Assembly: GCF_028368975.1 (NCBI RefSeq)
Contig: NZ_JAQNDM010000002.1
Coordinates: forward strand, 8,984,425-9,048,424
Source of the DNA: Stigmatella ashevillena
Lineage (GTDB): Bacteria; Myxococcota; Myxococcia; Myxococcales; Myxococcaceae
DNA: 64,000 bases
Direction of reading: 5' to 3'
The notes beneath the pieces are model-generated. The model made no database searches, was not told where the DNA came from, and was given only the letters and a program-made list of their open reading frames with translations. The position numbers were made by a program, and so were the translations under genes. This document shows positions 7,432 through 9,089 of this stretch, piece by piece. Position 1 is the stretch's first letter. The number at the start of each line of letters is the position of its first letter.

Positions 7432-8307
7432 TCAGATCGCGAGGGAGGACGTCTCGCGTGGCTGTCTTTCATGGGCCGCGAGCACCGCCGCGAACGCGTA
7501 CCAGCCCAGCACGGGGCCTGCTCCCGCGCCCATCCATGGAACCGGGAAGTTCCCGAAGAACGTGACCGCCAAGGTGAGGGCTGTGTAGAGCCCGAAGCCG
7601 ATGGCGGCCCGTGCGTGCGCGGGATGGGGGTTCCGGGCGGCGTGCAGGAACACGAGCAGCACCAGCGCGCCGACCGCCAGGGTGGCGCCGATCCATTCGG
7701 GGCCCCGCGCGGCCGCGAGAAAGAGGATCCGCTCGACGTGGTCCACGGCGGGCAGCGGATCGACCCGGGTCCAGGTGAATCCCGCGAGCACCGCCATCAG
7801 GCCTCCCAGGGCCATTCGCGGGGCGACTCCGAACAGGTGGTTTCCCACGAGCAGGGCCAGGGCTCCTCCCGCGAGCGCGCTGGCCTGAGCGGCGTCCGGC
7901 TGGGCCAGGTGAATCAGCTGTGCCCCCAGCGCGAGCACGGCGGAGGTCTTCCTCACCGCGGGATGTGAGGCGCTCATTCCCGCAAGAATCCAAGGCAGGA
8001 AGGCCGCGGAGGCGTTCAGGCGCACAGGCCCTATTGAGAGCCAACGGTGCACCCCTTCGATTCCGGGGGACACGAGGGTTGCGACCAGGGCGATGAACGT
8101 GGCGATGGCCATTCCATGAAGGGCCCGGTCTCTTCCTGCACGGGAGAGGCGAAGGAATCCAAGCGCGCAGGCTCCGCCGAGCAGGCACGCCAGCACGTTT
8201 GGCAGGAATGCCCTGGCGCTGCTGGCGCCCGCGTTGGCCACGGCGGCGCCGAGAAGGATGGCCGGGAGGGGCGCCAGGAGAAACAGTGTGAGATGAAGAG
8301 GTCGCAT
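7432..8307 (-). CDS. Divergent SEDS-like (FtsW/RodA-related) membrane protein
   Basis: A 291-residue integral membrane protein with about nine to ten hydrophobic segments. Several SEDS landmarks appear in the usual order: GVHRWLSIGP (85-94) resembles the GxRRWLxLGP loop; QPD (136-138) matches the conserved QPDLGT; LPAVDHVE (185-192) aligns with the LPExHTD loop that carries the catalytic Asp, here Glu192; GNFPVPWMGAGAG (252-264) resembles the PLPFVSYGGSS segment. It is shorter than true SEDS glycosyltransferases (about 370-420 residues) and lacks QPSE (NASA here). The start could also be 8337. Function is unproven: a degenerate or specialised relative of the peptidoglycan polymerases. Confidence 0.6.
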   Translation of the reverse strand: MRPLHLTLFLLAPLPAILLGAAVANAGASSARAFLPNVLACLLGGACALGFLRLSRAGRDRALHGMAIATFIALVATLVSPGIEGVHRWLSIGPVRLNASAAFLPWILAGMSASHPAVRKTSAVLALGAQLIHLAQPDAAQASALAGGALALLVGNHLFGVAPRMALGGLMAVLAGFTWTRVDPLPAVDHVERILFLAAARGPEWIGATLAVGALVLLVFLHAARNPHPAHARAAIGFGLYTALTLAVTFFGNFPVPWMGAGAGPVLGWYAFAAVLAAHERQPRETSSLAI

Positions 8308-8348
8308 GGCTTGCTGCACGGACGGTGCCCAAACCATAGACTGGCGCC

Positions 8349-9089
8349 ATGCCCGACGCGTACCGGTTCCTGGTGGATGAGCACATTCCCGTGCTCAAAC
8401 TGCATTTCGAACCCCGGCCTGGCCCGGCTGTCCTCGTCCTGCACGGTTTGGGAGCGAACGCCGACACCCAATACGGGGAATTGAACGCACTCGCCCACTG
8501 GGGGTTGAGCGCCGTGGGGGTGGACGCTCCGCACCATGGGGCCCGGCGCGATGCGTGGCTCGATGAGATGGCGAGGCTCGGCCCGCCCGAGTCCCATGCC
8601 CGCCTGCTGCATGCCATTCGTGCGTCCACCCGGGATGTGTCACGCGTCATCGACCACGTGGTGCGTGAGGGCCATGGACCCATCGGGCTCGTGGGCATCT
8701 CGTTCGGTGCGTACACGGCACTGGCGGTGGCCGCGGAGGACTCGCGGGTCCAGGCGACCGTGTCGCTGCTGGGCTCGCCGGACTGGTCACCCCGCGAGGG
8801 GCCCATCACCGAGGAGATTCGCGAATTGATGTGCCATGCCCCCGTCCACCGCCCGTGGGACTGCGCGCGCCACCCCTTGCTGCTGGTGAACGCAGGCCGA
8901 GACACGGTCGTCCCTCCGCACTGGGCCCGCGACTTCGCCCAGACCTGCTGGGAGCGGTTTTCCGGGTGGGACTCGCACGTCGAATACGTCGAGTACCCGG
9001 AGTCGGAGCACATGATGCGGCAGCAGGATTGGGAGGCGTGCTGGGACCGGTCGCTGCGCTTTCTCCGCCGCCACCTCTACAAGGAGTGA
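8349..9089 (+). CDS. Alpha/beta hydrolase
   Basis: A 246-residue cytoplasmic alpha/beta hydrolase without signal peptide. Visible parts: the oxyanion region LHGLGAN (31-37), the nucleophile elbow GISFG with Ser118, a probable catalytic acid Asp185 in NAGRDTVVP, and a C-terminal His221 in SEHMMRQ. The size and HGLGAN...DAPHHG pattern resemble small esterase/dienelactone-hydrolase-like enzymes. Substrate unknown. It is transcribed divergently from the SEDS-like membrane gene (starts 41 bases apart) and converges with the GlxA-type regulator, so it is probably monocistronic. Confidence 0.85.
   Translation: MPDAYRFLVDEHIPVLKLHFEPRPGPAVLVLHGLGANADTQYGELNALAHWGLSAVGVDAPHHGARRDAWLDEMARLGPPESHARLLHAIRASTRDVSRVIDHVVREGHGPIGLVGISFGAYTALAVAAEDSRVQATVSLLGSPDWSPREGPITEEIRELMCHAPVHRPWDCARHPLLLVNAGRDTVVPPHWARDFAQTCWERFSGWDSHVEYVEYPESEHMMRQQDWEACWDRSLRFLRRHLYKE

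Follow-up and report, generated by a model that had tools for sequence, protein, structure and literature searches.

The catalytic Asp is regarded as a hallmark of the SEDS polymerases. Mutational work has shown which residues of these proteins matter: in RodA-PBP2, activity is abolished by D262A and P257A and lowered by R101A, W102A, Q111A, and D159V, while E114A and K117N have a modest effect in vitro and the matching changes in SpoVE are severe in vivo (PMC10449877). The function of E. coli FtsW is likewise abolished by W138A, Q147E, P196T, and D297A, and its activation residues lie largely at the interface of ECL4 with FtsI (PMC8765783). RodA, FtsW, and SpoVE (PF01098; CAZy GT119) belong to the GT-CB fold class, as do WaaL and the GT-C1 Wzy families (GT121, GT125-GT129). 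GT119 is described as one of the least diverse of them, using a single donor and a single acceptor; at the position that aligns with the catalytic residue, several of the WaaL and GT-C1 Wzy families have Glu or Asp, and for GT-C1 sister families a Glu aligned with the SEDS Asp is proposed to activate the acceptor (PMC10920833).

A divergent member has been described in Listeria. Lmo0421 (416 aa; Firmicutes) is a HAAS-FtsW/RodA fusion encoded in the sigC operon with the PadR regulator LstR, and it lies outside the FtsW and RodA groups. The protein analyzed here, from Stigmatella ashevillena, is likewise divergent. It has in common with RodA, FtsW, and SpoVE the ten-helix fold, the Arg-Trp pair of loop 2, the QPD of loop 3, an acid before helix 8, and a P..G.G motif before helix 10, but it differs from them in its loops, in part of its motifs, and in the acid itself.

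A compact relative of FtsW and RodA

The window, a 64,000-nucleotide stretch of a 10.95-Mb genome assembled in two contigs, contains an open reading frame that runs from 8307 down to 7432 on the minus strand, starts with ATG, and encodes 291 residues; a second in-frame ATG is found at 8337. The features discussed below are the following:

7432..8307, minus strand: coding sequence (291 aa) for the compact membrane protein with the SEDS fold and ten predicted helices
8026..8055, minus strand: GVHRWLSIGP, residues 85-94, periplasmic loop 2; R88/W89 align with E. coli RodA R101/W102
8005..8016, minus strand: NASA, residues 98-101, in the position where SEDS proteins have QPSE
7894..7902, minus strand: QPD, residues 136-138, periplasmic loop 3; D138 aligns with RodA D159
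7732..7767, minus strand: periplasmic loop 4 in its shortened form, RVDPLPAVDHVE, residues 181-192; the RodA loop is longer by about 40 residues
7732..7734, minus strand: codon of Glu192, directly before helix 8
7516..7554, minus strand: GNFPVPWMGAGAG, residues 252-264, corresponding to PLxSYGGS of SEDS proteins; alignment posterior >0.95 for residues 257-267

The window protein is a distant relative of the SEDS polymerases FtsW and RodA. It scores 20.3 bits (E 3e-4) against Pfam PF01098, below the gathering cut-off of 26.4, and 27 bits (E 1.7e-6) against TIGR02614 ftsW. Single-sequence searches of genome contigs and the PDB returned no matches, and distant relatives were reached by profiles only. 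When a profile of 39 members, built from relatives in genomes of the source order, was compared with PDB sequences, E. coli RodA was found at E = 6.6e-10 and T. thermophilus RodA at 2e-6, and the only non-SEDS match up to E 10 was TniQ at 0.8. Profile-profile alignment of the family with a canonical SEDS set of 33 proteins, E. coli RodA and FtsW included, gave a probability of 97.6 and an E-value of 3e-12. No match to the window protein was found in PHROGs or PADLOC, nor in a viral structure library at E 1e-3, and a search with P0001 found no plasmid-borne copies. We set aside an extra PF01098 match in a congener (L060), which is a spurious match to a metallophosphatase-like frame, and a weak match in another family of the order (L047), which is an unrelated protein.

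The predicted structure points the same way. An AlphaFold model made with the family alignment as input (pLDDT 88, pTM 0.89; 74-77 in the loop segments 81-90, 181-190, and 191-200) has ten membrane helices and the loop-2 hairpin, and it aligns with FtsW 8p1u at Z 21.2 over 281 residues and with RodA 6bar at Z 21.1 over 268. The best seven entries among solved structures are FtsW and RodA, followed by WaaL at Z 11.3 and by unrelated chains at 8.4 or less. We therefore rejected an identity as WaaL or O-antigen ligase, for which the fold match is clearly weaker; the protein also has no Pfam match to the WaaL and GT-C1 Wzy families. The model of an Asp-bearing relative, predicted with lower confidence (pLDDT 75), again has RodA as its best match (Z 18.7). 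Chance hydrophobic similarity was also rejected, since the profile E-values, the fold match, and the motif conservation described below all argue against it.

The first-pass annotation had proposed a SEDS-like protein from four FtsW/RodA landmarks aligned by eye, and these do occur in the expected order: GVHRWLSIGP, QPD, LPAVDHVE (residues 185-192, ending in Glu192), and GNFPVPWMGAGAG. Both the profile search, with SEDS proteins as its sole significant PDB matches, and the predicted fold bear this assignment out. A deficit of about 100 residues was a fair estimate, because E. coli RodA (370 residues) is longer by 79 residues and E. coli FtsW (414) by 123. The model matches the FtsW/RodA fold with ten helices, so no helix was lost; instead, loop 4, which connects helices 7 and 8, is shortened relative to RodA and further loops are reduced too.

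Residues kept and lost around the putative catalytic site

Conservation was counted in 110 family members in a full-length profile alignment to canonical SEDS proteins. R88, W89, P137, and D138 are invariant (110/110) and Q136 is present in 109. The annotation had also noted the absence of QPSE, and indeed the QPSExxK motif is not found: the window protein reads NASA...L, with N98, A101, and L104 falling on RodA Q111, E114, and K117. Across the family this motif is mostly lost, K117 in every member (0/110), while E114 is kept in 9/110 and a Gln stands at the Q111 site in 19. RodA R210, a proposed diphosphate contact, is without a certain counterpart, R181 (Arg in 85/105) being a candidate.

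LPExHTD, the motif that closes loop 4 with the catalytic Asp, is absent from the window protein, which has Glu192 before helix 8. The annotation had placed this Glu where the polymerase Asp is expected. The full-length alignment of the whole-family profile pairs E192 with RodA D262 and H190 with H260, and extending HMMER's second, weak stretch of alignment with E. coli RodA without gaps gives the same E192/D262 pairing. The posterior of the E192/D262 column is 0.25, however, and the profile of the Asp-bearing subfamily alone instead places VDQ on the GYHIIQS stretch (GYxxxQS motif) of RodA loop 4. Topology favors the pairing, because both residues directly precede helix 8, and so does conservation, because position 192 is the only site in loop 4 that is acidic in every intact member. 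We infer that Glu192 is equivalent to RodA Asp262, as in the best full-length alignment, although the pairing is not secure.

The Glu is not a peculiarity of the window protein but the rule of a large family: among 108 members with a letter at position 192, 90 have Glu and 18 have Asp. In a later, larger set, the sole other residue was a Gly in a broken copy. Such an exchange of Glu for Asp only is as expected of a catalytic acid or base, and position 192 is, judged from these alignments, the probable catalytic site of the compact branch. D183 was considered as the catalytic acid and rejected, as it is less conserved than 192 (an acid in 93 percent of members, with Gly in six). All 33 canonical SEDS proteins carry Asp. 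Within the compact family, Asp192 is confined to one clade that is nested among Glu-bearing branches (local supports 0.96-1.0), so the simplest reading is that the family began with Glu and that Asp arose by reversal. In the set of papers searched, no test of D262E in RodA or of D297E in FtsW was found.

Taken together, the parts that have been kept surround the reaction center between the two lipid cavities of RodA, and those that have been lost are the PBP-docking loop and the residues of the substrate path.

Distribution, evolution, and gene neighborhood

In a FastTree tree of the merged alignment, the compact proteins form a single clade outside FtsW and RodA, on a stem of 1.46-1.63 substitutions per site; both the stem length and the monophyly are somewhat favored by construction, because the merged alignment rests on one pairwise profile alignment, and some inner supports are low (0.24-0.56). 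With the profile search and the predicted fold, this tree backs the earlier suggestion of a new SEDS branch, and supports the view that the compact proteins are a new, sizeable, and widespread branch of the SEDS fold. Relatives were found in Myxococcota, Caulobacterales, Sphingomonadales, Acidobacteria, Bdellovibrionota, Gemmatimonadota, and Solirubrobacter, several of them in metagenome bins. They are present in 41/145 genomes of the source order; in samples from the family that includes a Brevundimonas and from the one that includes a Novosphingobium, 33/149 and 31/150 genomes have them. Each of the eight genomes that were checked outside the Myxococcota family encodes at least two canonical SEDS proteins as well. 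The source genome itself has two intact canonical genes, an ftsW within the dcw cluster and a rodA that immediately follows a PBP2 gene, and the window protein is therefore a third, divergent relative.

Compared with the closest congener, the window gene has a dN/dS of 0.40, versus 0.03 for FtsW and 0.10 for RodA in the same genomes. It is thus conserved as a protein and under selection, yet evolving fast. Broken copies (split frames or fragments) occur in several myxobacterial genomes (L028, L030, L036, L130). Fast evolution, patchiness, and broken copies fit a conditional, non-essential role.

The neighbors in the window are a gene for a TonB-dependent outer-membrane protein and, at 8349-9089 on the opposite strand, one for an alpha/beta hydrolase; no sign of glycan-synthesis genes was seen among them. 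By eye, no class B PBP gene was recognised beside the SEDS-like gene in the window or at the displayed loci, where neighboring genes were called with a simple composition script. One association seen elsewhere in the family concerns a PadR-type regulator (PF03551), which adjoins 21/24 Asp-bearing members versus 1/97 Glu-bearing ones. The PadR genes beside Asp-bearing members often show a 4-base overlap (loci noted for the Asp-bearing subfamily: L040-L046, L133, L136, L138, L149, L207, L209, L222, L223, L225). The sole Glu-bearing exception, with a PadR-like gene nearby, came from the search in the Brevundimonas family (L192). Most Asp-bearing members also have an extra N-terminal part of about 65-75 residues with three predicted helices, as a HAAS domain might, but with no Pfam match. 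Compared by description, Lmo0421 resembles this subfamily in its preceding PadR gene and its N-terminal three-helix part; the window protein has neither.

A second neighbor is a serine hydrolase of PF00144, which adjoins the gene directly and in the same orientation in Phenylobacterium, Pyxidicoccus (where such hydrolases flank it on both sides), and a third group from the sphingomonad-family search (L109, L113, L114, L117, L128, L145, L035, L178, L179, L186, L229). Such genes occupy 13/221 adjacent positions versus 7/1009 others, and the nominal p of 3.5e-6 overstates the association, because only three lineages contribute and the counts are not independent. The hydrolases are 22-30 percent identical between lineages and therefore look recruited separately.

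Other arrangements recur within single groups. In seven loci from the sphingomonad-family search (L181-L185, L188, L189), the gene directly follows that for dihydrolipoyl dehydrogenase in the oxoglutarate dehydrogenase operon, and by eye a small glyoxalase-like gene is often next. Three Myxococcus species (L092:7404-8834, L093, L094) have the gene 36-69 bases after a KdsC-looking HAD phosphatase gene on the same strand. In Corallococcus (L149:1945-2841), a PF00756 esterase gene lies immediately downstream of the SEDS-like gene.

Possible roles of the compact branch

The compact branch probably does a different job from that of FtsW and RodA, and a role of the window protein as a PBP-coupled peptidoglycan polymerase is unlikely. 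The retention of the reaction center, together with the Glu of the GT-C1 sister families, makes a stand-alone transferase the best-supported reading. The loss of most of ECL4 (loop 4), the loop of the FtsI interface, and the PF00144 hydrolase genes that adjoin the gene in three lineages also speak for it. We give about an even chance to the window protein being a glycosyltransferase-like enzyme that would act on a lipid-linked sugar without a PBP partner. In this scenario, Glu192 would stand in for RodA Asp262 as the general base, activating a sugar hydroxyl, which would then attack an undecaprenyl-diphosphate-linked sugar. A class B PBP would not be needed, because most of the docking loop is gone and no PBP gene stands beside, and the substrate would be used otherwise than in ordinary lipid II polymerization, because RodA Gln111, Glu114, and Lys117 are not kept. 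The protein may then be an envelope glycosyltransferase that is used under particular conditions. Against such an enzyme speak the low posterior of the E192/D262 pairing, the different placement of the Asp subfamily, and the lack of a sure counterpart of RodA R210, as do the fast evolution, the patchiness, the broken copies, and the absence of a glycan pathway among the neighbors in the window. Moreover, Lmo0421, the closest PadR-linked SEDS protein to have been described, failed to substitute for FtsW or RodA (PMC6624303).

The same lack of FtsW/RodA function in Lmo0421 (PMC6624303) fits the main rival, which we consider possible but clearly less probable: a catalytically silent SEDS-fold sensor of the state of the envelope, with lipid II or a different lipid-linked sugar as its ligand, as proposed for PadR-linked membrane domains. 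Together with PadR, HAAS-FtsW/RodA fusions are described as forming signalling dyads (PMC11237479). The PadR genes beside the Asp-bearing members, mostly with the 4-base overlap and the three-helix N-terminal part, agree with this, as does the loss of the substrate residues, E114 mostly and K117 wholly. The case for a sensor is best in the PadR-linked subfamily and poorest in the window protein, which lacks the N-terminal part and is not the one Glu-bearing member with PadR nearby. A mere binder, furthermore, need not keep the acid at 192, the Arg-Trp pair, and QPD invariant in a fast-evolving protein. The adjacent PF00144 genes raise another scenario, wherein a different transferase or phosphodiester enzyme is paired with a secreted beta-lactamase-fold serine hydrolase and both modify one envelope polymer. 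While seemingly separate recruitment in three lineages would be consistent with it, the counts are not independent, PF00144 is a common gene family, and at most loci, the window among them, no such gene adjoins; the alpha/beta hydrolase of the window is unrelated and on the other strand. We consider this pairing doubtful.

An ordinary third peptidoglycan polymerase, that is, a spare RodA or FtsW polymerizing lipid II with a class B PBP, would account for a fold identical in kind and for the motifs partly held in common. It appears quite improbable given the loss of about 40 residues from the PBP-docking loop 4, the absence of a recognised class B PBP gene beside the displayed loci, the replacement of RodA Q111, E114, and K117, and the intact ftsW and rodA elsewhere in the source genome. 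The dN/dS, the patchy occurrence, and the broken copies might even suggest a decaying remnant without function, but motifs are kept across several phyla, the frame is intact in most members, and the dN/dS is well below 1, which leaves this explanation hardly credible.

Building on the stand-alone transferase, we also put forward a more tentative model, to which we assign well below an even chance. The compact proteins could form a third functional class of SEDS proteins, partner-free and found in several phyla, with an ancestral Glu base and a use of lipid-linked sugar other than lipid II polymerization, working in some lineages with a beta-lactamase-fold serine hydrolase and including an Asp-reverted subfamily under PadR control.

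If Glu does occupy the probable catalytic site while most of the docking loop is gone, this would show that evolution has put the SEDS fold to a new use, in a different reaction or in sensing. The compact branch offers a natural comparison for working out which residues turn a SEDS protein into a peptidoglycan polymerase, and it advises caution, as a protein annotated as FtsW/RodA/SpoVE is not always a cell-wall polymerase.
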